A stretch of DNA of 64,000 bases from assembly GCA_015179125.1 (NCBI GenBank), contig WHVA01000501.1, forward strand, positions 1 through 64,000, given 5' to 3'. This document shows, in pieces, positions 1,169-57,049 of the stretch. Position 1 is the stretch's first letter, and each line of letters begins with the position of its first letter. This DNA is from Gautieria morchelliformis. Taxonomy: Eukaryota; Basidiomycota; Agaricomycetes; Gomphales; Gomphaceae. The notes beneath the pieces are model-generated. The model worked only from the letters and a program-made list of their open reading frames with translations, did no database searches and was not told the DNA's origin. The position numbers were made by a program, and so were the translations under genes.

Positions 1169-1196
1169 CTAGGTGGGTACCCGCGCTTCGCGCGGG
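1169..1196 (-). other. Helitron 3' terminus of H1 (hairpin and CTAG)
   Basis: CTAG is at 1169-1172 and a 7-bp stem (CCCGCGC/GCGCGGG, loop GAA or TTC depending on strand) at 1180-1196. This hairpin followed by CTRR is the hallmark terminator of Helitron rolling-circle transposition. Just inside it, at 1200-1290, are tandem copies of a GGTCAAACGCMTCGGTAA-like subterminal repeat, shared by all 13 elements and a plausible Rep binding region (inference). Confidence 0.9.
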
Positions 1197-1369
1197 GGTG
1201 TAGGTCAAACGCCTCGGTAAGGTCAAACGCATCAGTAAGTCTAACACAACAGTAAGTCTAACATATCGGTAAGGTCAAGTACATTGGGGAAAATCAAAGT
1301 AATCAATTTGCATCAAGTACAATGAAGTAACACACATAAATCATATCAAGAGAAGTGGATATAAAAAAA

Positions 1370-4300
1370 TCAAGGAGCTCTAAGTAATACATCTTTATAT
1401 ACAATGTTGGTTGTGTCCAAACCCTCCTCAAGCAAGACCTTCACTCTGTTCCAGTTGGTCCCTCTTGATACACCAACATACAACTGACCATGTCCAAACA
1501 CTGGATATCTCAGGTCCAGCCCAACCGTACCCAAAGACTGTCCCTGAGACTTGTTGATAGTCATTGCAAATGCCAAACGCACTGGAAACTGCCTCCTTTG
1601 CAGCACAAATGGCAACTCTCCCTCTGATGGCTTAATGATGATCCTGGGGATGAAAGCAATATTTCCTGCACATGGACCTGAGATGATCCTGACCTCCAAC
1701 ACTCTAATGCTTATCCTCACCAACCGCAACCTTGTCCCATTGCATAGTCCTTGCTTCTGATCCAAATTGCGCAACAGCATCAGAGGCACTCCAGGCTTGA
1801 CTTCCAAGCGAGCAGGAGGAAGACAGCCCATCTCTATGGAATTCAGATACTCCACAGGATAACGATCTGCATCGTCGGACTCTTCAATGGAATTTGCACA
1901 GTGCAAGACCTGAGCATCACCTGGAAACTCCCTAAACACCATGGAATTGATCTCATTGACCTCAGTGTTTCTGGCACAGAGGATGGCACGCTCCAAAAAG
2001 TAATTGTCCTGGGCAGGGACATGATTGCCAATGCCAGGGTATATTTCCTGGATCAGATCTTCAATTCCAGGGCCACAAACCATGTGAGGAGGGAGTGAGA
2101 ACGTATGATCTAGTGGGAGATCCTTTCCCTGGCCCACATTCTGCAGCCATTCTGCAAACCTGGCTCTGTCAGGGTCATTTCTCACCCGCATGTTCTCTGT
2201 CAGATGGAGGACATTGATCTTTGGCCACAGATATGACTTCTGAAGGGTAGCTCCCACGATATCCTCCTTGGAGCCTTTAGGGACAATTGGGAGAGTCTGC
2301 TGAAAGTCACCTCCAAAGGCGACTGTGATGCCACCAAAGGGACTGTCAGGCTGGTCAAGGAAATCCCTCAGTGTCCTGTCAATGGCCTCTATGGCATGGC
2401 GATGCTGCATTGCAGCCTCATCCCAGATGAGGAGACTGGCCTGTCTCAGCATGTCAGCCTTGTCAGAGTTCTTTGTGATGAAGGAGAGAGAGCACTCATG
2501 GACAGGAATGGGAATTCCAAGCATGCTATGAGAGGTTGTACCCTTAGTGAGGATAAGTGCAGCCATTGCAGATGAGGCTACTGCGATCACAATGAGGCTC
2601 TCCGCTCTACAGGAGTGGATTAGAGTGTTCCATGTGAATGATTTCCCAGCACCACCTGAGCCAGTGACAAAAAACATTTGTCCATCAGGTTTCCCATGAG
2701 CATCTCTGGTCAGTGCCGACCATAATATCTGATCATGCGCGGACCTTTGCCCCTCATTCAGCCTGGGAACCTCCTCATCAGCTATGTCCCTCTCTTGAAC
2801 AGGGTCATAGTCCCTCTGCTCAGCTATGAACCTGTTTCCAATGAGGGCCTCCCACTCGCCTGCCACCCGAGGCATATCATCAAAGCTGCTCAAGGACATT
2901 CCACCCAGCTGGAGGATTTTATCCAAGAGAAAGAGGCCAAAATCATAAACCTGATCGTCCTGTGGATTCTGCATACCATGTCTGATTTGGAGCTGATGTC
3001 TGAGATCATCACATATGTGCTCCCTGAAGGCATCCCATAATCTGCCGGGGCCCGATGGATTGCAATGGCCAAGGATGGTGGCAAAGAGATGTCTGAGCTG
3101 AGCACCTGTTTTCATGCCACTGGCTTCCTGGAGACACAACCTCAACTCCTGATCATCATCCAGAAGTCCCCTTGCACGACAGGCCTCCTTGTAAGTAGCA
3201 TATTGTATGCCATCCACCGACCTAAGCTCCTCAAAGGATCTAGCCCCCTTGACCACTGTGAGGAGAGTGCGCACAAAAAATCTCTCTCCTGATTTAGGGT
3301 TTGCAAAGTGAAGGCGACCGATGCTAAAACTTCTTTGGCGTGGTGTCCATACCTTTTCCTGTGCTTGCCAGGTAAAATGCTCAGGAAACTCCACATAGAG
3401 CAGATCACGTGCTTCAGGGTAGATATCATTGGCCTCAAAGTAAGCCATGAGCGGTGTCTTTTTCGCCTCAGCCCTTTCCAGGATGTTGTCCACATCCTGG
3501 TTGGGATCAAAGATGATTGTGTGATGGTCCTTTTCATGGACTGGCAGTGCCATGACTGCAGGCACCTGGGTGTGGATTTCCCGCTCCAGCAACCTCCAAC
3601 AGGCCTCATGAGCACTGACATAGCGAGCGTCCAGGTACTGCTTAATTTCATCCTGGGTGCGACCAAACTCCATGGTGGTCCGATCATGGCCCTTGTAGAG
3701 ATACTTGTGGATATACTTGATACACCTGACATTGATGGTGAGTTCAGGGTTGATGTGACACCAGAATTTGAGCAAGAGCAGAGCAGAGTATGGCACAACC
3801 CATCTGTTGTCCAGCATGTCACCTCTGACATTGTGCAGCCTTCCATCATTGCGACGACGATATTTTGGATATCCATCCTCATTCAGACTGGTTTCCTCAC
3901 AGAATGGCTTTGGGAAGTTTTTCTTGCACTTGCCATTTTCCATGCAGGGTGCGTTTGGTTTCATTTGTCCACAGGGACCATGTGTCATCAGCTCACAGAC
4001 CAACCGGTAGAGGACAGGATGAGTCTCTGGATCAGGGAACTCTGCCGAAATCATTGAATCCACCTCATGTGGATGTCTGATCTTGGAATCTCTTTCAAAC
4101 CAGATAAGAATATGCATGTGTGGGAGTCCCCTTTTCTGGAATTCAATGGTGTGGACGCGAGCGACGGTTTCCCCAAAACTCCTTTCCTTGACGATCAAGT
4201 CAATGAGGTATTTCTTTTTGAGCTGGAACACCCGCGACACCAGGTCAGGCCTGTCCTGAGGAGTTTGTCCGGGCAACAATGCATCCAATACCTCCTGCCA

Positions 4301-6460
4301 GTTGGGATTGGCAGTCATGGTAATAAAGAGATCTGCCACACCATACTTCCTTGAAATGGCCAGAGAGTTCTGCAGGTTTTCCTGCATGTCCCGTGTCCCC
4401 CCCTGAAATGTGGCAGGCAGAATGGATCTTATGCCCAAGTTGTTTGGATCTCTGTCATTGTCATTGCGATGAAAGGCATCCATCATCTGGTTATGCATCT
4501 CAGCACGGAGAGTGTGTTGATTTGTCCTGATCCACCACAGCCTGCTTTGCTCTGCAGCGGCCCAAGAGTCTACAATGTACTGCTGGAATAATTTGCCAGC
4601 GGGCAGGAGTGTTGTAGGTTCTTCTGTTCTCTGGAAGAGACGATAGGAATGGAACTGAATTTGGGTGACATGCCCACTTCGCTCACGCCCGTCTGGTAAT
4701 TGGCGATAGCGAATACCAGGTTGCCACCCCAACTCTCCCCTGGGAAAGAGCAAGACATAGTGAAGAGAGGCATAGTTTGGATTCATATCGGATACCCTTC
4801 GAAAGCGTCCACCTTTGAGCTGGACAATAACATCCCTAGGTTCAGGGATGATGCCATCTCCAGGAAGAACCACCGCAATCTCATCCGCAGTAGGGATATT
4901 ATACCTCCTAGGATCCCTGTGTTCCCTGTATGTGAGCCTAGCCCGGATCTCACCATTCTGTCCCTGAGCTCTGAGCCTCTTAGCCGCTTGTCTATATATG
5001 GGAACATGAGGATTGCATAAGAGGAGCATTTCCTGCAAGTCTCCCATGATAGTTGGAGACAGACCTGGGTTACGGGTGTTCCTCTGTGCCAAAGCCAATG
5101 CTGGATCATATATATAAAGTTGGGCATACTGTATCCGCCTCCCAGGGTTAGGGATGAGAGAGCCATGAATATGATACAGTTCGCCCTGCAGCTTGAGGAC
5201 ATATGGACCACGACCCTCCCGAAGCAAATGTTGGTCAAAGTCGGCTCCCAAGGAAGTGAATGCAAATGCAGCATTGTACTGCCTGATGTTCTTGCGAAAC
5301 TGTTTGGCCTCAGGGTCCTGGCCCTCTAAGAGCCGTCTCAATGGCTGAGGGAGCACTGGCAGCTCTGGAAGCTGCACCTTGCCTTCTAAACAGCAATCAC
5401 CAAATCTGGGCCGCCGATTTGAGGATCTCAGCAGGCGTTCTGCCATCCAGTGTAATGCTCCACAGTCAGGGCAGGCAACAACCATGGGACCCAGATCATG
5501 ACGCAGCACATCTGCCTCGATTATTCTAGAGCGACCGAGTGTAATCAAAGGAGGAAGTCGCTGAGGACGCTGCCGAGGTACAGGGTGTGGCAGAAGAGGC
5601 TGTGGAGGTGCAGGGAGTGGCAGAGGAGGCTGAGGAGGTGCAGGGAGTGGCAGAGGAGGCTGAGGAGGTGCAGGGAGTGGCAGAAGAGGCTGTGGAGGTG
5701 CAGGGAGTGGCAGAGGAGGCTGAGGAGGTGCAGGGAGTGGCAGAAGAGGCTGTGGAGGTGCAGGGAGTGGCAGAGGAGGCTGAGGAGGTGCAGGGTGTGG
5801 CAGAAGAGGCTGTGGAGGTGCAGGGAGTGGCAGAGGAGGCTGAGGAGGTGCAGGGAGTGGCAGAGGAGGCTGAGGAGGTGCAGGGAGTCGCTGAAGAGGC
5901 CGCAGAAGCACAGGGAGTAGCGGAGGCATTGGTCTTATTGCATTGGCCTGAGCACGCAATGCTGCCACTCCTGCAGAACCTACTACAGGAGGATTAGCTG
6001 CCTGTCTACCTCTTCCCAATTGCTGCAATATAGCAGACTGCTCAGCAGCCTGAGCACGCAACTGTGCAATTCCTGCAGAACCAACCACAGGAAGATTGGG
6101 AGGTGGCTGTATAGGCGCCTGCCTGTATCTTCTCACGGGCTGTGCTGCTGGGATTGCTGCTAACTGAGCACGAAGGGCTGCCACCTGCTGTCCAGGACTG
6201 GGATCAGGAGGACGTAATGGCCCTGCAGCAGGTTGTTGAAAAGGATCAGCCGCATTGCTTCTAGGAGGAGGGTGAGGGATGGCAAAAGGAGGTGGTGGAG
6301 GGGGTGGCTGGTTCCGAGCTCTGGCAGCAGCCACAGCAAGGGCACGCGCTCTCCGATCAGTAGGCGACGTCATACCACCCTCCTGCTCCTCCCTCGCCCT
6401 TTCACGCTCCTGCTGACGATTTCTCTCTGGAGTAGATGGATCCCTGAGAAATGCAGGCAT
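1370..6460 (-). CDS. Helitron Rep-helicase (RepHel) transposase, intact
   Basis: This is a 1696-residue rolling-circle transposase that nicks the element ends, unwinds DNA and ligates. In order it has a basic N-terminus, a Pro-rich repeat (about 195-295), a CPDCGALHW...CC zinc-binding cluster (about 325-360), the Helitron-like N domain (about 600-760), the HUH metal site LPHMHILIW (near 780) and a C-rich stretch. The two-tyrosine active site IKYIHKYLYKG follows near 917. The C-terminal part is a Pif1-type SF1 helicase with Walker A GSGGAGKS (near 1270), Walker B LIWDEAAM (near 1345), GGDFQQTLPIVPKG (near 1387) and the last motifs TINKSQGQS and YVGVSRGTN (near 1633-1660). All catalytic motifs are present. 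The length is normal for fungal Helitrons. The ATG at 6460 lies in a pyrimidine-rich stretch ending TTTCTCAG, so a spliced start further upstream is possible. Confidence 0.93.
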   Translation of the reverse strand: MPAFLRDPSTPERNRQQERERAREEQEGGMTSPTDRRARALAVAAARARNQPPPPPPPFAIPHPPPRSNAADPFQQPAAGPLRPPDPSPGQQVAALRAQLAAIPAAQPVRRYRQAPIQPPPNLPVVGSAGIAQLRAQAAEQSAILQQLGRGRQAANPPVVGSAGVAALRAQANAIRPMPPLLPVLLRPLQRLPAPPQPPLPLPAPPQPPLPLPAPPQPLLPHPAPPQPPLPLPAPPQPLLPLPAPPQPPLPLPAPPQPLLPLPAPPQPPLPLPAPPQPPLPLPAPPQPLLPHPVPRQRPQRLPPLITLGRSRIIEADVLRHDLGPMVVACPDCGALHWMAERLLRSSNRRPRFGDCCLEGKVQLPELPVLPQPLRRLLEGQDPEAKQFRKNIRQYNAAFAFTSLGADFDQHLLREGRGPYVLKLQGELYHIHGSLIPNPGRRIQYAQLYIYDPALALAQRNTRNPGLSPTIMGDLQEMLLLCNPHVPIYRQAAKRLRAQGQNGEIRARLTYREHRDPRRYNIPTADEIAVVLPGDGIIPEPRDVIVQLKGGRFRRVSDMNPNYASLHYVLLFPRGELGWQPGIRYRQLPDGRERSGHVTQIQFHSYRLFQRTEEPTTLLPAGKLFQQYIVDSWAAAEQSRLWWIRTNQHTLRAEMHNQMMDAFHRNDNDRDPNNLGIRSILPATFQGGTRDMQENLQNSLAISRKYGVADLFITMTANPNWQEVLDALLPGQTPQDRPDLVSRVFQLKKKYLIDLIVKERSFGETVARVHTIEFQKRGLPHMHILIWFERDSKIRHPHEVDSMISAEFPDPETHPVLYRLVCELMTHGPCGQMKPNAPCMENGKCKKNFPKPFCEETSLNEDGYPKYRRRNDGRLHNVRGDMLDNRWVVPYSALLLLKFWCHINPELTINVRCIKYIHKYLYKGHDRTTMEFGRTQDEIKQYLDARYVSAHEACWRLLEREIHTQVPAVMALPVHEKDHHTIIFDPNQDVDNILERAEAKKTPLMAYFEANDIYPEARDLLYVEFPEHFTWQAQEKVWTPRQRSFSIGRLHFANPKSGERFFVRTLLTVVKGARSFEELRSVDGIQYATYKEACRARGLLDDDQELRLCLQEASGMKTGAQLRHLFATILGHCNPSGPGRLWDAFREHICDDLRHQLQIRHGMQNPQDDQVYDFGLFLLDKILQLGGMSLSSFDDMPRVAGEWEALIGNRFIAEQRDYDPVQERDIADEEVPRLNEGQRSAHDQILWSALTRDAHGKPDGQMFFVTGSGGAGKSFTWNTLIHSCRAESLIVIAVASSAMAALILTKGTTSHSMLGIPIPVHECSLSFITKNSDKADMLRQASLLIWDEAAMQHRHAIEAIDRTLRDFLDQPDSPFGGITVAFGGDFQQTLPIVPKGSKEDIVGATLQKSYLWPKINVLHLTENMRVRNDPDRARFAEWLQNVGQGKDLPLDHTFSLPPHMVCGPGIEDLIQEIYPGIGNHVPAQDNYFLERAILCARNTEVNEINSMVFREFPGDAQVLHCANSIEESDDADRYPVEYLNSIEMGCLPPARLEVKPGVPLMLLRNLDQKQGLCNGTRLRLVRISIRVLEVRIISGPCAGNIAFIPRIIIKPSEGELPFVLQRRQFPVRLAFAMTINKSQGQSLGTVGLDLRYPVFGHGQLYVGVSRGTNWNRVKVLLEEGLDTTNIVYKDVLLRAP
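5576..5890 (-). repeat. 30-bp coding minisatellite (Pro-rich decapeptide)
   Basis: A 30-bp unit (GTGCAGGGAGTGGCAGAGGA and 10 more bases) repeats about ten times in frame inside the transposase and encodes PLPAPPQPPL/PLPAPPQPLL. The same place in H13 has only two units, so this segment expands and contracts while keeping frame. The Pro-rich arm is probably an unstructured linker between the N-terminus and the zinc cluster. Confidence 0.85.
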
Positions 6461-7030
6461 AAGCTTAGAGGAACAATCAAGCTACCCCACTTCAACTTAC
6501 ATTTGCAAGCAGATGCTGTTGTTGTTAATTTTTCTTGGGCAAAGTCAGGGGAATTTATTAATTTCTAATTAAATAAATGTCAGACGGCTCACACCAGACC
6601 ACAGAGAAATACATACATACCAAGGAAGGGATGGGGAGTCTGTTTGTTAGGCAAAGTCAAGGGAATTTAATAATTTCTATTTAAAAGAAAAAGAAAAACT
6701 GTCAGATGGCTCACACCAGACCACAGAGAAATATATGTACCAAGGAAGGGATGGGGAATTTTTTTGATGAAAATATCCAAGTCTTCTTCGGCTATCCAAC
6801 TGGAATAATTCTTCCAGTAAAAGGTCCTGGTCCTGGTCCTGGGGAGATGTCTTCTTCAGCCACCAGTAGTGCAAGTCAACACTGAAAGAACTGCAATGCA
6901 ATTGTGGCTCCCTCTAAGGCAGCCTGGGATGACTACCTGGCTCCGTAGCAGAGAAAAAGCTGCCCCAATGAAGGGGTCAACCCCAATAGTTCACTGCAGA
7001 GACCTCCCTGGGAAGAGATCTTTTGTGTAC
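6461..7030 (-). other. H1 5' leader with a duplicated segment
   Basis: This non-coding leader has two diverged copies of a segment of about 115 bp (near 6550-6645 and 6664-6765), each with the words CACACCAGACCACAGAGAAA and CCAAGGAAGGGATGGGG. H13 has the same pair. The stretch next to the gene carries the AATAAATTCCCTGACTTTGCC-like block found in the leaders of all the other elements. Confidence 0.6.
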
Positions 7031-7034
7031 TACA

Positions 7035-7389
7035 CTATATAGGCTATCTATTAATTCAGTCTCACGCAATTTTTATTCTATCTAGTAGTGGGCAGAGAGG
7101 AGAGGAGAGGAGGGTGGTGGTGGAGTGCGCAAAGCGGCTGGCTGTGCAGCGATCTGCCAGCGCAGCGCTGCTTTGAGCGCCTGAGCCGGCAGACCGGCGT
7201 AAACCGCTCGCGGCTGCGCCGCTCGCACGCTCCAGAACGCTGCGCAGCGCTGGAGCCGGCAGAGTGGCGCAAACCGCCGGTAGGGCCCAGGGGCTCGCGG
7301 CTGCGCCGCTCGTGCGCTCCGCTGACAAACTGATGACCAAGCATTGGTCAGCAGCGCCCACAACCCACTGAGCGCGTTTAACTCTTAGA
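7035..7389 (-). promoter_or_regulatory. H1 5' end region: TATA-like box and GC-rich block
   Basis: On the minus strand the 5' end is followed by a GC-rich block (7100-7370) with the palindromic core GAGCGGCGCAGCCGCGAGC. A TATATAG box follows at 7035-7041, about 580 bp before the gene. H13 keeps the same order (TATATAG at 51448-51454). I infer a promoter from position and conservation only. Confidence 0.5.
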
Positions 7390-7587
7390 CTAGGTGGATA
7401 CCCGCGCTTCGCGCGGGGTGCAAGTCAAATGCCTCGGTAAGGTCAAACGCATCAGCAAGGTCAAACGCCTTGGGTAAATCAAACTTGGGATAAGTCAAAC
7501 ACATTCAGATAAGGAAATTTCTTTCAGATAAGTAAAACACATCTTATTGATTGAAAGTAGCTCTAAGTAACACATCAAGGTAGGTAA

Positions 7588-8148
7588 TGTTATGACCATG
7601 CTGCTTGACCAACTCTGGTACCTCCATGCCTCCTCTGGCTCTATTCCACAATGTCCACACTTTGACCTTTTGATTCCCTTGTTCTTTACTATTCACATAC
7701 TTCCCCTTTTGACTCTATTCACTGGCCTTCCCTACTTGACCCTTAGCATAGCAAGTCTGGAGCATCAGGAGATCCATTTGTTCCACTATCAATTAGACCC
7801 ACATTCCCCTTGTTCTTTTGCCTATTGATTGTTCTTACTTCTACCCGGCACCCCCTTGTAGTTCCTCTTGTTCCGTATTAGTTACTTACTCCATTTATCC
7901 TAGTTACTTTTGCTTGCACTGGAATTGCTTACCTCTACCTTCTGACATGTTGTCTCAGCTCTTTGTATAAAACCCAGTCATGTGTGCCTCTATTCTGCAA
8001 TCAGATAATTGACTTTGATATGTGACTCCCTTTGCACTGTTTCCTATTCTTACCACAGCAAGTACTTGCAAGGCCTCTGTCTCTCTGACCTCTGCCTTCC
8101 AACTCGATTTCTGATATCCAACTTAACTCAATTCTTGACCCCTTACCT
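7588..8148 (-). mobile_element. Solo LTR (family L1), truncated by an internal Helitron end
   Basis: One LTR edge, TGTTATGACC, is at 7588 next to the target sequence GGTAA (7583-7587). The other edge is lost where the internal Helitron terminus begins at 8149. The full-length version at 38221-38900 has both ends (TGTTATG...CATAACA) and a 5-bp duplication (TTACC, the same site). A TATA-like TTTGTATAAAACCC lies at about 7963. No internal retrotransposon genes are present. Confidence 0.8.
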
Positions 8149-8172
8149 CTAGGTGGATACCCATGCTTCACA
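8149..8172 (-). other. Internal (bypassed) Helitron 3' terminus in H2
   Basis: CTAG at 8149-8152 follows a 17-nt hairpin, as at true ends, but the stem is weakened (CCCGTGT with GCATGGG, two G-T pairs). Subterminal repeats lie inside it. On the minus strand it is followed by LTR sequence rather than by another 5' end. Confidence 0.8.
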
Positions 8173-8280
8173 CGGGGGTGTAGGTCAAACGCATTGGGTA
8201 AATCAAACTTGGGATAAGTAAAACACATCTCATTGCAATTGAAAGTAGCTATAAGTAACACATCAAGATAGGTAATGTCT

Positions 8281-9235
8281 CTACACATGTCTGCATGTGC
8301 CCAAGTATAGCGTGCATAGCATGTCCTCCATGCATAGCCTCGAATATAGCATGCTTATTGTGTCCCTGGTTTGTAACATGACCCCACACATAACATGTCC
8401 CCAAGTATAGTGTGTGTAGCATGTCCTCCATGCATAGTGTGTCTCCACATGTAGCATGTCCCCAAGTACAGTGTGCATGGCGTGTCTCACATGCATAGCA
8501 TGTCCCTGGTTTGTAGCATGTCCCCAAACATAGCGTGTCCCTAAATTATAGCATGTGTGTCCCCCATGCATAGCGTGTCCACATGTGTAGCATGTCCCTA
8601 CATGTAGTGTGTGTAGCATCTCCCTCAAGTATAGTGTGCAAAGTGTGTCCCCAATGCATATATAGTGTGCATAGCATGTCCTTTGTTTGTAGTGTGTCCC
8701 CCAAGTATAGCATGTGTAGAATGTCCCTTGTTTGTAGTGTTTTCCCCTGTAGTGTGTCCCTTGTTTGTACCGTGTCCCCCAAGCATAGTGTGTCCCCACA
8801 TATAGTGTGCACATCCCCATGCATAGCGTGCGCCCATGCATAGCATGCTTGTCCCCATGCATAACATGCATGTCTCCACGCATAACATGGGTGTCCCCAA
8901 GTATAGCATGTGTGTCCCCATGCATAGCATGCATGTCTCCATGCATAGCGTGCGTGTCCCCAAGCATAGCGTGCATGTCCCCAAGCATAGCGTGCATGTC
9001 CCCAAGCATAGCGTGCGTGTCCCCACGCATAACATTCGTGTCTCCATGCATACCATGAGTGTCTCCACACATAGCATGCGTGTCCCCAAGCATAGCGTGC
9101 GTGTCCCCACGCATAACATGCATGTCTCCATGCATAACATGCGTGTCCCCATGCATAGTGTGTGTAGCATGCCCCTCAAGTATAGCATGCATAGCATGTC
9201 CCAATGGCATGTGTAGCATATCCCCAAGGGCCTCA
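8281..9235 (-). repeat. 21-bp-type minisatellite MS1 in H2
   Basis: Degenerate tandem units with consensus TGTCCCCAAGCATAGCGTGCA (plus strand) fill about 950 bp. Most are 21 bp, with variants up to about 40 bp. The 21-bp period is a multiple of three, so several frames on both strands stay open and spell Met-His-rich heptapeptides. I regard those as by-products and not proteins. The units share the core TAGCRTGTCCCC with MS2 of H4, H5 and H10. Confidence 0.85.
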
Positions 9236-9239
9236 AAGT

Positions 9240-9870
9240 GAAGCAAGCAGAGGCTGTTACTACTTATTAACTTTTAGCAAGCTCAGGGACATGTATCAAT
9301 ATCTATTTTGTGACATATACAGACATAAATAAAATAGTCAAGGAAACCATATTTAAGCAGCTGTCATTAATTTTTAGCAAAGTCAGGATTATCTATTTTT
9401 TGAAAAAATGTCAAGAAAATGTCCAGTACATGTAAGCTGAAGCTGTTATTAATTTTAGCAAAGTTAGGGTTATCTATTTTTCGAAAATGTCAAAAAAATG
9501 CACTGTACATTTAACCTGGAGCTGTTGTCAATTTTCACAAAGTCAGGATAATTTATTGATATCTATTTGCGAAAAAATGTCAAAAAAGTACAGTACATTG
9601 AAGCAGAAGCTGTTATTAATGCCCAGTCAAAGCCAGAGAAGCCCAGGGACTGACAGAGAAACCCAGAGCCAGCCACCAGTATAGGTAAGCAGCTTTACAG
9701 TCAATAAAACAATAAAACAAACCACATTTAAAAGCAGAACCTATTGTCATTAATTTTAGAGGAAACTTATTGATGTCTATTTTCAAAAAAAACCTGAAAA
9801 ATATAGATATTACACTACAATTTTTTCACCACAGTCTGGGGATGTTATTTAAATCTATTTTAGAAAAAAT
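9240..9870 (-). repeat. H2 leader repeat array
   Basis: This AT-rich tandem array has units of about 85 bp. On the minus strand each unit has TGACTTTGCTAAAATTAAT, a CAGCTTCTGCTT-like word, ATGTACTG and TTTTTTGACATTTTTTCG. Equivalent arrays occur in H3, H4, H5, H9, H10 and H12. It lies between the promoter region and the minisatellite payload and is probably a transcribed leader or intronic sequence. Confidence 0.7.
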
Positions 9871-10189
9871 TCAGAAAAATATAAAGCACATGTGACAATA
9901 CAATATAATGAAAAAAAAGAAAGGAACCAATGAAATTACAAACCCAAATAAAATAAAATACATGGCAATGCATTAAAAAAGAGATATTACCTACCAATAG
10001 AAATCCAGCCAAGCCAATAGATAGCCAGCCAAGCCAAGCAAAAGATACCTAGCCTGCCAAAGCAATAGACAGCCAGCCAGCTAAAGGAGGAGACACTATA
10101 GAGAGCAGACAGCAGACAGAGCAGAGCAGACAGGGAACAGAGCAGACAGCAGCAAGAGGAATTGCCGGTGGGCAGATTCCTGCCATTCC

Positions 10190-10549
10190 ATCCTTACCGT
10201 TCTGCCTTTATACCGTTCGCGCGTGGTCCGTGCACGCGCGTGCACGGACCACGCGCGAACGGGTCCACATCCATGTGCTGAGTATCCTGAACGAAAGAAA
10301 ACATTGCATTAGCGGTCACGTGACCGCTGCGCAGCGTTCGTTGCCAGCGCAGGGTTGAGCGCTGGAGCCCGCGAACCGCTCGCGGCTGCGCCGCTCGCGC
10401 TCCAGGTTCACGCCGGTCTGCCGGTCATGTGACCGCTGCGCAGCGTTGGTGCTCGCGGCTGCGCCGCTCGCCGCTGACATAAGTTTTACGTAATATTATT
10501 TGTAAGCGGCACCCACAACCTCCCACCGTGCTGCTTTCACCTATAGGAA
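10190..10549 (-). promoter_or_regulatory. H2 5' promoter-like module
   Basis: Reading the minus strand from the 5' end there is a GC-rich block, then the palindrome GGTCATGTGACC (10423-10434) and a perfect copy GGTCACGTGACC (10314-10325). After these come a CGTGCAC-rich inverted repeat (10215-10262) and TATAAA at 10207-10212. The CACGTG core is a bHLH-type site. The order palindrome, GTGCAC repeat, TATA recurs in the other non-autonomous elements, which supports a real Pol II promoter. Confidence 0.6.
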
Positions 10550-10725
10550 CTAGGTGGATACCCGCGCTTCGCGCGGGGGTGCAAGTCAAACGCCTCGGTA
10601 AGGTCAAACGCATCGGTAAGGTCAAACACCTTGGGTAAATCAAACTTGGGATAAGTCAAACACATTTGGATAAGAAAATTTCATTCAGATAAGTAGAACA
10701 CAACTTATTGATTGAAGGTAGGTAA

Positions 10726-12031
10726 TGTTATGACCATGCTGCTCGACCAACTCTGGTACCCCCATGGCTCCTCTGGCTCTATTCCGCAATGTCCACACTT
10801 TGACCTTTTGATCCCCTTGTTCTTTACTATTCACATACTTCCCCTTTTGACTCTATTCACCGGCCTTCCCTACTTGAGCCTTAGCATAGCAAGTCCAGAG
10901 CATCAGGAGATCCATTTGTTCCACTATCAATGTTACAACTGTTCCGCTCAACCATCTCCGCCATATCCGCATATCCTCCTCACCACCTCTGCACCGCCTC
11001 CGCACCACCTCCAACTCTATTCCGCAACATCTGCACCATCCGCAACCCTCTACCTCGACCCTTGTGATTTCAGTACCCCTGGCCACCTCCAGATACCGAC
11101 CCCTGTACTCAACCCTGAACACAGCAAGATACCATTTCCGTAATTCTGTTTCTTCCAATGCCTATTGTACTTACTCGCCTTGTTCTTTGCCATTGTACTT
11201 ACCCTACCCTGCACCCCCCTTGTCATCCCATTGTTCCGCATTAGTTACTTGGCCCGTATGTCTCTCCGATTCCCGCACTCTCCGGAATTTGCTTAGTATC
11301 ATACTATTACCTGTTGCTTCAGCTCTTTGTATAAAACCCCCTCATGTATGTCTCCATTTCTGCAATCAGATAATCAACTTTGATACGTGATTCCCTTCGC
11401 ACTGTCTCCTGTTCTTAGCACAGCGAGTTTTGCTAGTCTTGTCTCCCTCCGCTCTCGATCCCCTGTCCTCTGCCTCTTCCGCCTCCTCCGACCTTTGTTC
11501 TCCGACCCTCGAACCTCAACTCTCAGTACTCTGTTCCCAACTTCTGCCTTCTCCGATATCCGCAAGTCAATCCCGAAATACTTAGGATGGTAGTTCATCA
11601 GGGGCGCAACACATAAGTTGAAGCCGTTGTCCTTTCCAGTTCCAACCTCTGGGAATTCCGATACGTAACAATCAATTAGACCCACATTCCCCTTGTTCTT
11701 TTGCCTATTGATTGTTCTTAGTTCTACCCGGCACCCCCTTGTAGTTCCTCTTGTTCCGTATTAGTTACTTACTCCATTTATCCTAGTTACTTTGGCTTGC
11801 ACTGGAATTGCTTACCTCTACCTTCTGACATGTTATCTCAGCTCTTTGTATAAAACCCAGTCATGTGTGCCTCTGTTTTGCAATCAGATAATTGACTTGA
11901 ATATATGACTCCCTTTGCACTGTTTCCTGTTCTTACCACAGCAAGTACTTGCAAGGCCTCTGTCTCTCTGACCTCTGCCTTCCACCTCGATTTCTGATAT
12001 CCAACTTAACTCAATTCTTGAACCCTTACCT
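10726..12031 (-). mobile_element. Solo LTR L1 copy in H3, interrupted and truncated
   Basis: It begins TGTTATGACC at 10726 beside GGTAA and runs to the internal Helitron terminus at 12032. A nested LTR (10931-11670) splits it. Apart from that insertion it matches the H2 copy closely, including the TTTGTATAAAACCC box. Confidence 0.8.
10931..11670 (-). mobile_element. Nested solo LTR (family L2), 740 bp
   Basis: The ends are TGTTACAACT and ATACGTAACA, flanked on both sides by ATCAA (10926-10930 and 11671-11675), a 5-bp target duplication. The matching part of the H2 LTR (near 7785-7795) is uninterrupted and serves as the empty site. It contains a TTTGTATAAAACCCCC box. Other copies of the family are at 34710-35374 and 49999-50732. 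Confidence 0.9.
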
Positions 12032-15625: not shown

Positions 15626-15629
15626 GGGA

Positions 15630-47225: not shown

Positions 47226-47529
47226 TTTTTATATCCACTTCTCTTGATATGGTTTATGTGTTTACTTCATTTTACTTGATGCAAATTGATTACTTTGGTT
47301 TTCCCCAATGTACTTGACCTTACTGATATGTTAGACTTACTGATGCATTTGACCTACCGAGGCGCTTGACCTACACCCCCGCGCGAAGCGCGGGTACCCA
47401 CCTAGTTACCTATGTGAAAGCAGCCGGTGGGAGGTTTGGGCGCGCTGACCAATGCTGACAATGCTTGGTCATTAGTTTGTCAGCGGAGCGCGCGCGAGCG
47501 GCGCAGCCGCGAGCCCCTGGCCATCACGG

Positions 47530-47900
47530 TTACGGCCGGTCTGCGCTCCAGGCTCTCTCTTTAGGTCAGCAGCGAGCGGCGCAGCCGCGAGCATGCTGCG
47601 CAGCGGTCAGGTGACCCGTTCGCGACCAGAGCGCACATACGCGAGCGTGGTCCGTGCACGACGCGCGGGCGGTATAAAGGCCGAACGGTAAGGATGGAAC
47701 GCCAGGAACCTGCCCAACCGGCGATTCCTCTGTCTGCTGTCTGCTATATGCTCTGTCTGCTCTGTGCTGTCTGCTCTGTGCTGTCTGTTCTGTGCTGTCT
47801 GCTGTCTGCTCTGTGCTCTGTCTGCTGTCTGCTCTGTGCTCTGTCTGCTGTCTGCTCTGGGTGCTGTCTGCTGTCTGCTCTGTCTGCTGTCTCCTCCTTT
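47530..47900 (+). promoter_or_regulatory. H12 promoter-like module and microsatellite
   Basis: GC-rich core (about 47574-47592), GGTCAGGTGACC (a one-base change in the palindrome), GTGGTCCGTGCACGAC, GGTATAAAGG (TATAAA at 47673-47678), then CTGTCTGCTCTGTGCTGTCT repeats to 47900. Confidence 0.6.
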
Positions 47901-48059
47901 AGCTGGCTGCCTGGCTATTGCTTGGCTGGCTTTCTATTGGTAGGTAATATCTTTGTTTAATGCATTGCCATGTATTTTATTTATTTGTGTTGTAATTTTA
48001 TTAGTTCTTTTTTTTTCATCATAGTATTGTCACATGTGCATTATATTTTGGTGATTTTT

Positions 48060-48710
48060 TTCGAAAATAGATTTAAATATCATCTAAAGACTGCTGAAAA
48101 AATTGTATTTAATATCAATATTTTTCAGGTTTTTTCGAAAATAGACATCAATAAGTTCCCTCTAAAATTAATCAGATTCTGCCTTTAAATGTGGTTTGTT
48201 TTATTGTTTTATTTACTGTAAAGCCACTTACCAGCCACCCCTCTCTGGCTATACTGGTGGCTGGCTTACTATGGCTTTGGCTGGGCTCTGGGTTTCTCTG
48301 TCAGTCTCAGGGCTTCTCTGGCTTTGGCTGGGCATTAATAACAGCCTCTGCTTCAATGTACTGTACTTTTTTGACATTTTTCGCAGATAGATGTCAATAA
48401 ATTATCCTGACTTTGTGAAAATTGTCAGCTTAAATGTACAGTGCATTTTTTTGACATTTTTCAAAAATAGATAATCTTGACTCTGCTAAAATTAATAACA
48501 ACTTCAGCTTAAATGTACTGGACATTCATTTTGACAGTTTTTGAAAAATAGATAATCCTGACTTTGCTAAAATTAATGACAGCAGCTGCTTAAATATGGC
48601 TTCCTTTACTATTTTATTTATGTCTGTATATGTCACAAAATAGATATTGATACATGTCCCTGAGTTTGCGAAAAGTTAATGATAAGTAACAGCCCCTGCT
48701 TGCTTCACTT
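48060..48710 (+). repeat. H12 leader repeat array
   Basis: AT-rich units of about 85 bp of the CTTTGCTAAAATTAATAACA type, collinear with H9. Confidence 0.65.
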
Positions 48711-48718
48711 TGAAGCCC

Positions 48719-49500
48719 TTGGGGATATGCTACACATGCCATTGGGACATGCTATGCATGCTATACTTGAGGGGCATGTTACACACACTAACATGCATGC
48801 TATGCATGGGGACACGCATGTTATGCATGGAGACATGCATGCTATGCGTGGAGACATGCATGTTATGCGTGAGGACACACATGTTATGAGTGGAGACATG
48901 CATGTTATGCATGGGACAAGCATGCTATGCATGGGGACACACAGGCTATGCATGGGCACACGCACACTATGCATGGGGATGTGCACACTATATGTGGGGA
49001 CACACTATGCTTGGGGGACCGGTACGAACAAGGGACACACTACAGGGGAAAACACTACAAACAAGGACATTCTACACATGCTATACTTGGGGGACACGCT
49101 ACAAACAAAGGACATGCTATGCACACTATACTTGGGGGACATGTTATGCATTGGGGACACACTTTGCACACTATACTTGAGGGGATGCTACACACACTAC
49201 ATGTAGGGACATGCTACACATGTGGACACGCTATGCATGGGGGACACACATGCTATAATTTAAGGACACGCTATGTTTGGGGACATGCTACAAACCAGGG
49301 ACATGCTATGCATGTGGGACACGCCATGCACACTGTACTTGGGGATATGCTACATGTGGAGACACACTATCCATGGAGGACATGCTACGCACACTATACT
49401 TGGGGACATGTTATGTGTGGGGTCATGTTACAATCCAGGGACACAATAAGCATGCTATATTCAAGGCTATGCACACTATACTTGGGCACATGCAGACATG
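48719..49500 (+). repeat. 21-bp-type minisatellite MS1 in H12
   Basis: GGAGACATGCATGTTATGCGT-like units with longer irregular units towards the 3' side. Confidence 0.85.
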
Positions 49501-49611
49501 CGTAGAGACATTACCTATCTTGATGTGTTACTTATAGCTACTTTCAATTGCAATGAGATGTGTTTTACTTATCCCAAGTTTGATTTACCCAATGTGTTTG
49601 ACCTACACCAC

Positions 49612-49637
49612 CATGTGAAGCATGGGTATCCCCCTAG
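49612..49637 (+). other. Internal Helitron 3' terminus in H12
   Basis: CTAG at 49634-49637 after a weakened hairpin (CCATGT/GCATGG, loop GAA) and TATCCCC in place of TATCCAC. LTR sequence (AGGTAAGGGTTCAAG) follows, as in H2 and H3. Confidence 0.78.
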
Positions 49638-50936
49638 AGGTAAGGGTTCAAGAATCGAATTAAGTTGGATATCAGAAATCGAGTTGGAAGGCAGAGGTCA
49701 GAGAGACAGAGGCCTTGCAAGTACTTGCTGTGGTAAGAACAGGAAACGGTGCAAAGGGAGTCACATATCAAAGTCAATTATCTGATTGCAGAACAGAGGC
49801 ACACATGACTGGGTTTTATTCAAAGAGCTGAGACAACATGTCAGAAGGTAGAGGTAAGCAATTCCAGTGCAAGCACAAGTAACTAGGATAAATGGAGTGA
49901 GTAACTAATACGGAACAAGAGGAACTACAAGGGGGTGCCGGGTAGAACTAATAACAATCAATAGGCAAAAAGAACAAGGGAATGTGGGTCTAATTGATTG
50001 TTACGTATCGGAATTCCCGGAGGTCGGAACTGGAAAGGACAACGGCTTCAACTTATGTGTTGCGCCCCTGATGAACTACCGTCCTAAGTATTTCGGGATT
50101 GACTTGCGGATATTAGGCAGAAGTCAGGAACAGAGTACTGAGAGTCGAGGTTCAAGGGTCGGAAATCAAAGGTCGGAAGAGGCGGAGGACAGAGGGTCGA
50201 GAGTGGAAGGAGACAAGACTAGCAAAACTCCCTGTGCTAAGAACAGGAGACAGTGCGAAGGGAATCACGTATCGAAGTCGATTATCTGATTGCAGAAATG
50301 GAGACATACATGAGGGGGTTTTATACAAAGAGCTGAAGCAACAGGTAATGGTATGGTACTAAGTAAATTCCGGAGAGTGCGGGAATCGGATAGACATACG
50401 GGGCAAGTAACTAATGCGGAACAATGGGATGACAAGGGGGTGCAGGGTAGGGTAAGTACAATGGCAAAGAACAAGGCAAGTAAGTACAATAGGCAGCAGA
50501 AGAAACGGAATTACGGAAATGGTATCTTGCTGTGTTCAGGGTCAAGTACAGGGGCCGGTATCTGGAGGTGGCCAGGGGTACTGAAATCACAAGGGTCGAG
50601 GTAGAGGGTTGCGGATGGTGTGGATGTTGCGGATGTTGCGGAATAGAGTCGGAGGTGGTGCGGAGGCGGTGCAGAGGTGGTGCGAAGGATATGCGGATAT
50701 GGCGGAGATGGTTGAGCAGGACAGTCGTAACATTGATAGTGGAACAAATGGATCTCCTGATGCTCCAGACTTGCTATGCTAAGGGTCAAGTAGGGAAGGC
50801 CAGTGAATAGAGTCAAAGGGGAAGTATGTGAATAGTAAAGAACAAGGGGATCAAAAGGTCAAAGTGTGGATGTTGCGGGATAGACCCAGAGGAGGCATGG
50901 AGGTACCAGAGTTGGTCGAGCAGCATGGTCATAACA
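49638..50936 (+). mobile_element. Solo LTR L1 copy in H12, truncated and interrupted
   Basis: It ends GGTCATAACA at 50936 beside TTACC (50937-50941). Its other edge is missing at the internal Helitron end. It is split by the LTR at 49999-50732. Confidence 0.8.
49999..50732 (+). mobile_element. Nested solo LTR (family L2), 734 bp
   Basis: The ends are TGTTACGTATC and AGTCGTAACA with duplication TTGAT (49994-49998 and 50733-50737). The target site and orientation relative to the host LTR match the H3 copy, so this is the same insertion event, inherited. Confidence 0.9.
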
Positions 50937-51447
50937 TTACCTACCTTGATGTGTTACTTAGAGCTACTTTCAATCAATAAGATGTGTTTTACTTATCTGA
51001 AAGAAATTTTCTTATCTGAATGTGTTTGACATATCCCAAGTTTGATTTACCCAAGGTGTTTGACCTTGCTGATGCGTTTGACCTTACCGAGGCGTTTGAC
51101 TTGCACCCCCGCGTGAAGCGCGGGTATCCACCTAGTCTAAGAGTTAAACGCACTCAGTGGGTTGTGGGCGCTGCTGACCAATGCTTGGTCATCAGTTTGT
51201 CAGCGGAGCGCGCGAGCGGCGCAGCCGCGAGCCCCTGGGCCCTACCTGCGGTTTGCGCCACTCTTCTGGCTCCAGCGCTGCGCAGCGTTGGCCGGTCTGC
51301 CGGCTCAGGCGCTCAAAGCAGCGCTGCGCTGGCAGATCGCTGCGCAGCCAGCCACTTTGCACACTCCACCACCACCCTCCTCTCCTCTCCTCTCTGCCCA
51401 CTACTAGATAGAATAAAAATTGCGTGAGAGTGAATTAATAGATAGCC

Positions 51448-51454: not shown

Positions 51455-52029
51455 TGTAGACCACAAAAGATCTCTTCCCAGGGAGGTCTCTGCAGTGAAC
51501 TATTGGGGTTGACCCCTTCATTGGGGCAGCTTTTTCTCTGCTAAGGAGCCAGGTAGTCATCCCAGGCTGCCTTAGAGGGAGCCACAATTGCATTGCAGTT
51601 CTCTTAGTGTTGACTTGCACTACTGGTGGCTGAAGAAGACATCTCCCCAGGACCAGGACCAGGACCAGGACCTTTTACTGGAATTATTCCAGTTGGATAG
51701 CCGAAGAAGACTTGGATATTTTCATCAAAAAAATTCCCCATCCCTTCCTTGGTACATATATTTCTCTGTGGTCTGGTGTGAGCCATCTGACAGTTTTTTT
51801 TGTGTTTTAAATAGAAATTAATAAATTCCCTTGACTTTGCCTAACAAACAAACTCCCCATCCCTTCCTTGGTATGTATGTATTGCTCTGTGGTCTGGTGT
51901 GAGCCGTCTGACATTTATTTAATTAGAAATTAATAAATTCCCCTGACTTTGCCCAAGAAAAATTAACAACAACAGCATCTGCTTGCAAATGTAAGTTGAA
52001 GTGGGGTGCTTGATTGTTCCTCTAAGCTT

Positions 52030-55000
52030 ATGCCTACATTTCTCAGGGATCCTTCTACTCCAGAGAGAAATCGTCAGCAGGAGCGTGAAAGGGCGAGGGA
52101 GGAGCAGGAGGGTCGTATGACGTCGCCTACTGATCGGAGAGCGCGTGCCCTTGCTGTGGCTGCTGCCAGAGCTTGGAACCAGCCACCCCCTCCACCACCT
52201 CCTTTTGCCATCCCTCACCCTCCTCCTAGAAGCAATGTGGCTGATCCTTTTAATCAACCTGCTGCAGGGCCATTACGTCCTCCTGATCCCAGTCCTGGAC
52301 AGCAGGTGGCAGCCCTTCGTGCTCAGTTAGCAGCAATCCCAGCAGCACAGCCCGTGAGAAGATACAGGCAGGCGCCTATACAGCCACCTCCCAATCTTCC
52401 TGTGGTTGGTTCTGCAGGAATTGCACAGTTGCGTGCTCAGGCTGCTGAGCAGTCTGCTATATTGCAGCAATTGGGAAGAGGTAGACAGGCAGCTAATCCT
52501 CCTGTAGTAGGTTCTGCAGGAGTGGCAGCATTGCGTGCTCAGGCCAATGAAATAAGACCAATGCCTCCGCTACTCCCTGCGCTTCTGCGGCCTCTTCAGC
52601 GACTCCCTGCACCTCCTCAGCCTCCTCAGCCACTCCCTGCACCTCCTCAGCCTCCTCAGCCACACCCTGTACCTTGGCAGCGTCCTCAGCAACTTCCTCC
52701 TTTTATTCCACTCGGTCGCTCTAGAATAATCGAGGCAGATGTGCTGCGTCATGATCTGGGTCCCATGGTTGTTGCCTGCCCTGACTGTGGAGCATTACAC
52801 TGGATGGCAGAACGCCTGCTGAGATCCTCAAATCGGCGGCCCAGATTTGGTGATTGCTGTTTAGAAGGAAAGGTGCAGCTTCCAGAGCTGCCAGTGCTCC
52901 CTCAGCCATTGAGACGGCTCTTAGAGGGCCAGGACCCTGAGGCCAAACAGTTTCCCAAGAACATCAGGCAGTACAATGCTGCATTTGCATTCACTTCCTT
53001 GGGAGCCGAGTTTGATCTAGATTTGCTTCGGGAGGGTCGTGGTCCATATGTCCTCAAGCTACAGGGCCAACTGTATCATATTCATGGCTCTCTCATCCCT
53101 AACCCTGGGAGGCGGATACAGTATGCCCAACTTTATATATATGATCCAGCATTGGCTTTGGCACAGAGGAACACCCGTAACCCAGGTCTGTCTCCAACTA
53201 TCATGGGAGACTTGCAGGAAATGCTCCTCCTATGTAATCCTCATGTTCCCATATATAGACAAGCGGCTGAGAGGCTCAGAGCTCAGGGACAGAATGGTGA
53301 GATCCGGGCTAGGCTCACATACAGGGAACACAGGGATCCTAGGAGGTATAATATCCCTACTGCGGATGAGATTGCAGTGGTTCTTCCTGGAGATGGCATC
53401 AACCCTGAACCTAGGGATGTTATTGTCCAGCTCAAAGGTGGACGCTTTCGAAGGGTATCCGATATGAATCCAAACTATGCCTCTCTTCACTATGTCTTGC
53501 TCTTTCCCAGGGGAGAGTTGGGGTGGCAACCGGGTATTCGCTATCGCCAATTACCAGACGGGCGTGAGCGAAGTGGGCATGTCACCCAAATTCAGTTCCA
53601 TTCCTATCGTCTCTTCCAGAGAACAGAAGAACCTACAACACTCCTGCGTGCTGGCAAATTATTCCGCTGCAGAGCAAAGCAGGCTGTGGTGGATCAGGAC
53701 AAATCAACACACTCTCCGTGCTGAGATGTATAACCAGATGATGGATGCCTTTCATCGCAATGACAATGACAGAGATCCAAACAACTTGGGCATAAGATCC
53801 ATTCTGCCTGCCACATTTCAGGGGGGACATGGGACATGCAGGAAAACCTGCAGAACTCTCTGGCCATTTCAAGGAAGTATGGTGTGGCAGATCTCTTTAT
53901 TACCATGACTGCCAATCCCAACTGGCAGGAGGTATTGGATGCATTGTTGCCCGGACAAACTCCTCAGGACAGACCTGACCTGGTGTCGCGGGTGTTCCAG
54001 CTCAAAAAGAAATACCTCATTGACTTGATCGTCAAGGAAAAGATTTTTGTGGAAACCGTCACTCGCGTGCACACCATTGAATTCCAGAAAAGGGGACTCC
54101 CACACATGCATATTCTTATCTGGTTTGAAAGAGTTTCCAAGATCAGACATCCACATGAGGTGGATTCAATGATTTCGGCAGAGTTCCCTGATCCAGAGAC
54201 TCATCCTGTCCTCTACCGGTTGGTCTGTGAGCTGATGACACATGGTCCCTGTGGACAAATGAAACCAAACACACCCTGCATGGAAAATGGCAAGTGCAAG
54301 AAAAACTTCCCAAAGCCATTCTGTGAGGAAACCAGTCTGAATGAGGATGGATATCCAAAATATCGTCGTCGCAATGATGGAAGGCTGCACAATGTCAGAG
54401 GTGACAGGCTGGACAACAGATGGGTTGTGCCATACTATGCCCTGCTCTTGCTCAAATTCTGGTGTCACATCAACCCTGAACTCACCATCAATGTGAGGTG
54501 TATCAAGTATATCCACAAGTATCTCTACAAGGGCCATGATCGGACCACCATGGAGTTTGGTCGCACCCAGGATGAAATTAAGCAGTACCTGGACGCTCGC
54601 TATGTCAGTGCTCATGAGGCCTGTTGGAGGTTGCTGGAGCGGGAAATCCACACCCAGGTGCCTGCAGTCATGGCACTGCCAGTCCATGAAAAGGACCATC
54701 ACACAATCATCTTTGATCCCAACCAGGATGTGGACAACATCCTGGAAAGGGCTGAGGCAAAAAAGACACTGCTCATGGCTTGCTTTGAGGCCAATGATAT
54801 CTACCCTGAAGCACGTGATCTGCTCTATGTGGAGTTTCCTGAGCATTTTACCTGGCAAGCACAGGAAAAGGTATGGACACCACGCCAAAGAAGTTTTAGC
54901 ATCGGTCGCCTTCACTTTGCAAACCCTAAATCAGGAGAGAGATTTTTTGTGCGCACTCTCCTCACAGTGGTCAAGGGGGCTAGATCCTTTGAGGAGCTTA

Positions 55001-56852
55001 GGTTGGTGGATGGCATACAATATGCTACTTACAAGGAGGCCTGTCGTGCAAGGGGACTTCTGGATGATGATCAGGAGTTGAGGTTGTGTCTCCAGGAAGC
55101 CAGTGGCATGAAAACAGGTGCTCAGCTCAGACATCTCTTTGCCACCATCCTTGGCCATTGCAATCCATCGGGCCCCGGCAGATTATGGGATGGCTTCAGG
55201 GAGCACATATGTGATGATCTCAGACATCAGCTCCAATCAGACATGGTATGCAGAATCCACAGGACGATCAGGTTTATGATTTTGGCCTCTTTCTCTTGGA
55301 AAAAATCCTCCAGCAGGGTGGAATGTCCTTGAGAAGCTTTGATGATATGCCTCGGGTGGCAGGCGAGTGGGAGGCCCTCATTGGAAACAGGTTCATAGCT
55401 GAGCAGAGGGACTATGACCCTGTTGCAGAGAGGGACATAGCTGATGAGGAGGTTCCCAGGCTGAATGAGGGGCAAAGGTCTGCGCATGATCAGATATTAC
55501 GGTCGGCACTGACCAGAGATGCTCATGGGAAACCTGATGGACAAATGTTTTTTGTCACTGGCTCAGGTGGTGCTGGGAAATCATTCACATGGAACACTCT
55601 AATCCACTCCTGTAGAGCGGAGAGCCTCATTGTGATTGCAGTAGCCTCATCTGCAATGGCTGCCCTTATCCTCACTAAGGGTACAACCTCTCATAGCATG
55701 CTTGGAATTCCCATTCCTGTCCATGAGCGCTCTTTCTCCTCCATCAAAAAGAACTCTGACAAGGCTGACATGCTGAGACAGGCCAGTCTCCTCATCTGGG
55801 ATGAGGCTGCAATGCAGCATCGCCATGCCATAGAGGCCATTGACAGGACACTGAGGGATTTCCTTGACCAGCCTGACAGACCCTTTGGTGGCATCACAGT
55901 CGCCTTTGGAGGTGGCTTTCAGCAGACTCTCCCAATTGTCCCTAAAGGCTCCAAGGAGGATATTGTGGGAGCTACCCTTCAGAAGTCATATCTGTGGCCA
56001 AAGATCAGGGTCCTCCATCTGACAGAGAACATGCGGGTGAGAAATGACCCTGACAGAGCCAGGTTTGCAGAATGGCTGCAGAATGTGGGCCAGGGAAAGG
56101 ATCTCCCACTAGATCATACGTTCTCACTCCCTCCTCACATGGTTTGTGGCCCTGGAATTGAAGATCTGATCCAGGAAATATACCCTGGCATTGGCAATCA
56201 AGTCCCTGCCCAGGACAATTACTTTCTGGAGCATGCCATCCTCTGTGCCAGAAACACTGAGGTCAATGAGATCAATTCCATGGTGTTTAGGGAGTTTCCA
56301 GGTGATGCTCAGGTCTTGCACTGCACAAATTCCATTGAAGAATCAGACGATATAGATCGGTATCCTGTGGAGTATCTGAATTCCATAGAGATGGGCTGTC
56401 TTCCTCCTGCTCGCTTGGAAGTCAAGCCTGGAGTGCCTCTGATGCTGTTGCGCAATTTGGATCAGAAGCAAGGACTATGCAATGGGACAAGGTTGCGGTT
56501 GGTGAGGATAAGCATTAGAGTGTTGGAGGTCAGGATCATCTCAGGTCCATGTGCAGGAAATATTGCTTTCATCCCCAGGATCATCATTAAGCCATCAGAG
56601 GGAGAGTTGCCATTTGTGCTGCAAAGGAGGCAGTTTCCAGTGCGTTTGGCATTTGCAATGACCATCAACAAGTCTCAGGGACAGTCTTTGGGTACGGTTG
56701 GGCTGGACCTGAGATATCCAGTGTTTGGACATGGTCAGTTGTATGTTGGTGTATCAAGAGGGACCAATTGGAACAGAGTGAAGGTCTTGCTTGAGGAGGG
56801 TTTGGACACAACCAACATAGTATATAAAGATGTATTACTTAGAGCTCCTTGA
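52030..56852 (+). pseudogene. Helitron Rep-helicase pseudogene (H1 family)
   Basis: This is a close copy of the H1 protein starting MPTFLRDPSTP, with only two Pro-rich decapeptides instead of ten. It is disrupted by a 26-bp deletion between 53665 and 53666 (in the IVDSWAAAEQ region), a G7 to G6 loss at 53821-53826 and loss of one A near 55235 (CCAAATC to CCAATC). The HUH, twin-tyrosine, Walker and final helicase motifs remain readable. One change, GGGFQQTLP for GGDFQQTLP near 55913, alters a helicase motif residue. Confidence 0.88.
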
Positions 56853-57049
56853 TTTTTTAATATCCACTTCTCTTGATATGGTTTATGTGTTTGACTTCAT
56901 TTTACTTGATGCAAATTGATTACTTTGGTTTTCCCCAATGCACTTGACCTTACTGATATGTTAGACTTACTGATGCATTTGACCTTACCGAGGCGCTTGA
57001 CCTACACCCCCGCGCGAAGTGCGGGTACCCACCTAATTATTCCTAAAAA

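Follow-up and report, generated by a model that had tools for sequence, protein, structure and literature searches.

The first 64 kb of contig WHVA01000501.1 (C562) of Gautieria morchelliformis (assembly GCA_015179125.1; a genome of 122 Mb in 1113 contigs), hereafter the window, carry an array of thirteen canonical Helitrons at 1169-57036, of which seven read to the left (E1-E7, minus strand) and six to the right (R1-R6, plus strand), with the 5' ends facing the centre at 32342/32343. Element calls from self-comparison of the window and end scanning confirm that the array is real, and it is one case of a genome-wide habit. We consider it probable that it grew by serial, mostly same-strand insertion of Helitrons at the 5' ends of resident Helitrons, with a rare flip founding the second arm.

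The array and its junctions

A sequence-only reading of the window had proposed contiguous Helitrons in two outward arms, seven to the left and six to the right, and the end scan bears this out. Its further statement, that at each boundary a hairpin-CTAG is followed directly by a 5' end, holds for nine of the eleven within-arm junctions, at which 3' end and 5' end are in exact contact without a spacer; the remaining two have spacers of 2 bp (E6>E5, a TA at 18816-18817) and 6 bp (R1>R2). In kind, the elements are canonical Helitrons (Helitron1), with a predicted RepHel that combines a HUH nuclease with two tyrosines and a Pif1-like helicase, a 3' hairpin about 11 nt before a CTRR end, and insertion at A^T instead of the T-rich or TT target of Helitron2/Helentron elements.

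Such junctions recur across the genome. The 24-base junction GCGGGTAYCCACCTAG/TCTAAGAG (at most two mismatches) is found 205 + 185 = 390 times, against 0 in the control, which rules out a chance origin, and the 100 junctions listed are spread over many contigs. The 3' end GCGCGGGTAYCCACCTAG (at most one mismatch) occurs 617 + 591 times, again with a control of 0. From its 100 listed places the first 71 were taken and one at a contig end (C139:14) was omitted, leaving 70 sampled 3' ends. Another Helitron 5' end follows 55 of these (a signature script found 23 in 30, one behind an 8-base stub, and reading by eye 32 in 40, one of them shortened), and other DNA follows the remaining 15. Among the 15 are L053 and L054, whose identical following sequences may represent a further 5' end type, and L161 (C133:220731-220831), where the 5' region of an R1-like element lies inverted behind the 3' end, so that an element entered that region in the opposite orientation. 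The preferred landing site suggested from the sequence alone is supported, apparently not as a special host locus but as resident Helitron 5' ends on many contigs.

The 5' ends begin with TC (A- and C-type) or with TT (B-type, TTCC; T-type, TTAC). At least four types of 5' end (TCTAAGAG, TTCCTATAGG, TTACACTATATG and TCTATAGTATAAAG) continue into a similar GGTGGG..GTTGTGGG-like block, a candidate, perhaps, for a common binding site.

Similarity between neighbours in the window, weighted by length over the aligned parts, does not go above 87% (the best E6/E7 piece attains 93%), whereas E6 of the left arm and R4 of the right arm are 98% alike. We compared 52 unique tandem junctions, ten from the window and the others from loci elsewhere, most of them picked by the junction pattern, and called a two-sided match where both sides were at least 95% alike over 700 bp. 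None of the 1326 junction pairs matched on both sides, while 75 shared the upstream side only and 15 the downstream side only; arithmetic gives about one two-sided pair if the sides are independent, and zero fits this. Since no pair matches on both sides, the junctions look like separate events and not like rolling-circle concatemers, whose neighbours should be near-identical, or copied dimers. Concatemers, dimer transposition and segmental duplication were rejected for this sample on neighbour identities and two-sided matching, and the same data, together with the near-identity of E6 and R4 across the arms, speak against the read-through amplification or single bidirectional event that the sequence-only reading had put forward.

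Target site and order of insertion

T comes right after all 70 sampled 3' ends. In a sample of 59 5' ends that was not unbiased (20 A-type and 39 B-type), 25 stand directly behind CTAG; of the other 34, stubbed ends included, 32 are preceded by A and two by T. In tandem, 5' ends are preceded by the G of CTAG and not by A. This G would break the A^T rule if the downstream element had come second; if the upstream element came second, it inserted at A^T, between the host A and the first T of the resident, and the rule holds. Hence, in tandem pairs the upstream element most likely inserted second.

Some complete 5' ends are separated by a short stub from the CTAG or other DNA in front of them, which suggests that resident 5' ends are also cut at A^T sites within the end. 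The stubs take the form CTAG/TTACACTA/TCTAAGAG at L068, CTAG/TCTA/TCTAAGAG at L081, CTAG/TCAA/TTCC at L130 and a TTCCTA run at L111. At L111 (C188:50470-50590) the stub run stands before a complete TTCCTATAGG 5' end, beside TTACACTA stubs, for which repeated insertion into the same 5' end and re-nicking are candidate readings. The remainder of the stub was not found immediately downstream in either of the two stubs followed (L081 and L068). The element at L081 is followed by a complete TCTATAG end and that at L068 by a TTCCTATAGG end, as expected for repeated insertion, which both fit without proving it.

The window holds a large-scale case. The 5' end of R2 is split into its first 8 bases and the rest across 34.8 kb, the remainder beginning at 35966 with TATGAAAGCGCCTAGGTGGGAGG; at L141, TTACACTA and TATGAAAGCGCCTAGGTGGGAGG are joined as one 5' end. 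Because the block 1169-35965 is nested in R2 at an A^T, R2 is older than E1-E7, R1 and the TAGGAA remnant between R1 and R2. As the 8 bases left of E1 are the start of R2, 1160 is probably the last position of host DNA on the left, which corrects the empty site proposed from the sequence alone. A search for the empty site with the joined flanks found nothing that spans the joint. The left flank gave no further match, and the right flank (57049-57889) is a dispersed repeat with 38 further places at 81-86% and a second copy at the window end (63136-64000); by eye, it looks like a Ty3-type retrotransposon.

Head-to-head contacts are rare. The 390 head-to-tail junctions into one A-type 5' end compare with 0 A-A and 0 A-B head-to-head contacts in genome-wide exact searches (gaps 0-20) and a single B-B contact, at C269:119318/119319 (genome-wide, no gap, at most three mismatches), a count that covers these three pairings; among the 70 sampled 3' ends, none is in a tail-to-tail contact. 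Equal orientations from re-use of A^T are rejected by these numbers. The contact on C269 is an exact 5'-5' centre, with eight exact plus-strand junctions from 122693 to 150209, and its left arm is one element (115748-119318) followed by other DNA; with a single left element it was rejected as a second long two-armed array. On C139 (L102), a nearly exact E7-like/R1-like centre has TA between the two ends, the same pair of end types as in the window; behind it lie 3' ends that read to the left. Two-armed layouts occur outside the window as well.

Growth of the array and rival explanations

In the reading that we favour, one canonical Helitron after another would transpose to the 5' end (left terminal sequence) of a resident Helitron, where the target is the A^T made of the base before the resident and the resident's first T. 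Same-strand insertion would give A[new...CTAG][TC or TT...resident] without a spacer and re-form the same A^T at the new 5' end. Occasionally a different A^T, 4 to 8 bases into the resident 5' end, would be cut, or the insertion would be reversed; an opposite insertion would put two 5' ends head to head, and the shared central A^T could then feed both arms, with all elements reading outward. In the window, R2, with R3-R6 behind it, would have come first, a left-reading element would have entered the R2 5' end after base 8, using its bottom strand, and R1 and the other left-arm elements would have come later. RepHel may recognise a resident 5' end as if it were the site that it normally cleaves and link the donor CTAG 3' end to it, which would amount to circle excision run backwards; cutting of one strand would fix the orientation. 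We give about an even chance to the wider proposal that resident 5' ends are true attachment sites at which RepHel integrates circles by reverse excision on one strand, across subfamilies and non-autonomous kinds, that Helitrons thereby self-assemble into polarised arrays, and that a rare bottom-strand cut in a 5' end reverses the polarity and gives rise to a two-armed array whose central target is re-formed permanently.

Several points weigh against serial insertion at 5' ends. The order of events is inferred from flank bases and nesting, no insertion having been observed. Two sampled 5' ends are preceded by T (L088, one base after CTAG, and L099), and the 32 preceded by A include L094, whose A sits in a CTA without G, and two supplied by the head-to-head pair on C269. 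Strong self-targeting is not a general property of Helitrons, because Helraiser in HeLa cells showed no clustering around donor sites in 701 retranspositions (PMC4778049). The 70 sampled 3' ends come from the top of a list sorted by contig, with short contigs among them, and hold a few near-duplicates (L053/L054, L144/L153); the polarity counts (390, A-A/A-B and B-B) were made under unlike tolerances. The 2-bp and 6-bp spacers are only partly accounted for. At the centre, the TCTA missing from R1 was found as a stub at none of the left-arm boundaries in the end scan, and the history there is therefore incomplete. The 1.16-kb 3' end of E7 has copies at 97-99%, and the 1.16-kb ends of E7 at the centre and of E1 at the edge both have 99% relatives; an age gradient with a young centre, sought in the copy identities of R1, E7 and E1, was too weak to count.

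An assembly artefact, in which repeats were collapsed or misjoined at shared termini, is favoured by termini that are common to many copies and by junctions that are known from the assembly, yet 390 like junctions break at exact transposon ends, the 100 listed lie on many contigs, partners differ among the 52 compared junctions and the T rule holds at every sampled 3' end. We regard it as the least probable of the explanations. Clustering in safe havens is common for transposons, and with selection or recombination random insertions might persist as arrays in gene-poor DNA or be spread by segmental duplication; the right flank is itself repetitive. Safe havens explain nearness, not base-exact contact: AT starts at 7.0% of window positions and about 1200 resident 5' ends exist genome-wide, so random A^T insertion would meet one about once in 7000 times (by arithmetic, if the genome is like the window), against 55 of 70. 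Duplication was not seen among the 52 junctions, the sole set tested, and this account is very unlikely.

Rolling-circle read-through or multimeric circles, which would lay down several copies in one event, have a precedent in bat and Bombyx mori, whose tandem Helitrons are put down to termination bypass (PMC4067079). Here the neighbours differ as described, no sampled junction is common to loci on both sides and a 5'-5' centre cannot be produced in this way, and we hold the explanation to be highly improbable. Growth on the 3' side would have a new element land just after the resident CTAG, at G^T, with the arms extending outward from an old centre. Exact junctions and outward arms would result from it too, and the 2008 account of a maize pair does not decide between the two orders (PMC2267711). 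The G^T target that it requires is at odds with the A that precedes 32 of the 34 sampled 5' ends not behind CTAG, and alone it gives neither the 5'-end stubs nor the split 5' end of R2, which leaves it unlikely. Serial insertion at resident 5' ends is the reading that we retain.

Elements and known systems

RepHel sequence is present in E1, E6, E7, R4 and R6, with whole frames only in E1 (open reading frame (ORF) 1370-6460, 1696 amino acids) and E6 (18992-23992, 1666 amino acids). The E6 protein has domain matches to PF14214 (1.9e-57) and PIF1 (3.6e-66), matches Helraiser (7lcc) at E 1.2e-273, and carries a Walker A motif as well as GLPHMHILIW and YIHKYLYKG, which we take to be the HUH and two-tyrosine motifs. 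Named protein matches include Pleurotus, Grifola, Gautieria and Mucor, along with many plants. The count of three transposase families in the sequence-only reading proved only roughly right. Compared with the E6 protein, E1 is 97% alike across 1384 residues, R4 99-100% over most of Rep-Hel (81% in a single piece), R6 97% over residues 1138-1656 and 80% over 1-1137, and E7 77-89%; by DNA, R6 is 96% alike to E1 over 99% of its length. DNA comparison places the non-autonomous elements in an S family (E2, E3, R2, R5) and an M family (E4, E5, R3), with R1 nearly alone.

Features of the Helitron array in the window
Feature	Position	Strand	Basis or remark
First 8 bases (TTACACTA) of R2 5' end, severed by nested block 1169-35965	1161-1168	+	L141
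E1, autonomous, 3' end at 1169	1169-7389	-	TCTAAGAG 5' end; hairpin-CTAG 3' end, hairpin z -4.07
E2, non-autonomous, S-type	7390-10549	-	End scans, DNA comparison; older internal 3' end at 8149
E3, non-autonomous, S-type	10550-14327	-	End scans, DNA comparison; older internal 3' end at 12032
E4, non-autonomous, M-type	14328-16518	-	End scans, DNA comparison
E5, non-autonomous, M-type	16519-18815	-	End scans, DNA comparison
E6, autonomous, RepHel ORF intact	18818-25570	-	Domain matches, motifs
E7, diverged RepHel, frames broken; 5' end at centre	25571-32342	-	Ends, ORFs, domains, protein comparison
Centre, E7 (-) and R1 (+) 5' ends in direct contact, no spacer	32342-32343		End scan; compare C269:119318/119319 and L102
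R1, non-autonomous, different 3' terminus, 5' end short of first 4 bases	32343-35959	+	Match rows; L180
TAGGAA, 6-bp remnant between R1 and R2	35960-35965		Reverse complement of TTCCTA
R2, S-type, 5' end split (first 8 bases at 1161-1168)	35966-39081	+	End scans, DNA comparison, L141
R3, M-type	39082-40923	+	End scans, DNA comparison
R4, autonomous-type, RepHel frame broken	40924-47405	+	ORFs 42216-44282, 44210-46543
R5, S-type	47406-51135	+	End scans, DNA comparison; older internal 3' end at 49637
R6, autonomous-type, RepHel frame broken, ends CTAA	51136-57036	+	ORFs 52006-53724, 53836-55332, 55248-56852

Apart from the CTAA of R6, the elements end in CTAG behind a hairpin, which stops 11 nt upstream of the 3' terminus in the five terminal ends folded (of 13), with z values of -4.07 (E1), -3.09, -3.09, -2.04 (R6) and -1.49 (R1). 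The 3' end of R1, GGTGCGAAGCACGGGTCTATTGGCTAG, is a different hairpin-CTAG, unlike that of the other elements. Because 26 of the 47 R1 match rows stop there (window 35960-35962, identity 91-99%), R1 is a true mobile element with a real 3' end; its 5' end lacks the first four bases, TCTA, which are present in the complete 5' end at L180. An old, degenerate R1 was rejected, the match rows showing a recent composite with an older, bypassed 3' end at 35620. Older hairpin-CTAG ends also lie inside three S-type elements (see table), and about 0.3-1.5 kb separate internal and working 3' ends, which looks like terminator bypass with a new 3' end gained; the only internal end folded, at 8149, folds weakly (z -0.60). 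Long minisatellites lie inside elements, with units of 17 bp (14803-15601, 17157-17792 and 39938-40455, the arrays of E4, E5 and R3, which match one another), 21 bp (8814-9158) and 150 bp (24113-25198).

Exact head-to-tail Helitrons have hitherto been read as rolling-circle concatemers or as separate insertions, the order in maize being left open (PMC2267711). With hundreds of junctions, which look independent wherever they were compared, and with nested 5' stubs, this genome allows a direct reading of insertion order, choice of strand and target. If the proposed explanation is true, eukaryotic rolling-circle transposons have a self-targeting, orientation-specific mode, and one simple rule explains outward-reading arrays. 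Exact adjacency and the A^T idea are already published for the maize pair; for prevalence and scale, independence, stubs, polarity and two-armed arrays, no counterpart was found in the searched papers. No two-armed or 5'-targeted large array appeared in that literature, which was searched by title and start of abstract, with subscription journals and preprints mostly outside it.

That head-to-tail Helitron clusters are known, as the sequence-only reading stated, agrees with published work on maize, bat, Bombyx mori and Fusarium. The Fusarium FoHeli elements (PMC5148889, 2016) likewise insert into themselves near their 5' ends and have duplicated 5' termini, but they are Helitron2-like, with other termini and the target TNAT/T (FoHeli1-2), and the cases described are single ones without large arrays; the same report gives one case of three tandem copies in Metarhizium. 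Tandem or directly adjacent Helitrons, distantly related ones included, are summarised for bat, Bombyx mori and maize (PMC4067079), where tandem arrays are attributed to termination bypass, which the present junctions contradict. The bat Helibat/Helraiser system (PMC4778049, 2016) shares the A^T target, the CTAG-3' terminus and, with the A- and C-type ends, the 5'-TC, as well as the 3' hairpin and RepHel; purified Helraiser transposase cuts the top strand of its left end at 5'-TC and the bottom strand at an internal AT. Some Helibat insertions also directly adjoin another Helitron, these cases being among 39 exemplars with new 3' ends of 395 copies, whereas here 55 of 70 3' ends do so. The maize report (PMC2267711, 2008) describes an adjacent head-to-tail pair and discusses, among its models, insertion at the AT formed by a host A and the resident's first T. 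As here, the CTAG of one element abuts the TC of the next and the two elements differ. Maize offers one pair, its order left open there, whereas the present genome adds hundreds of junctions with a test of the target bases, cuts inside 5' ends, and two-armed arrays.

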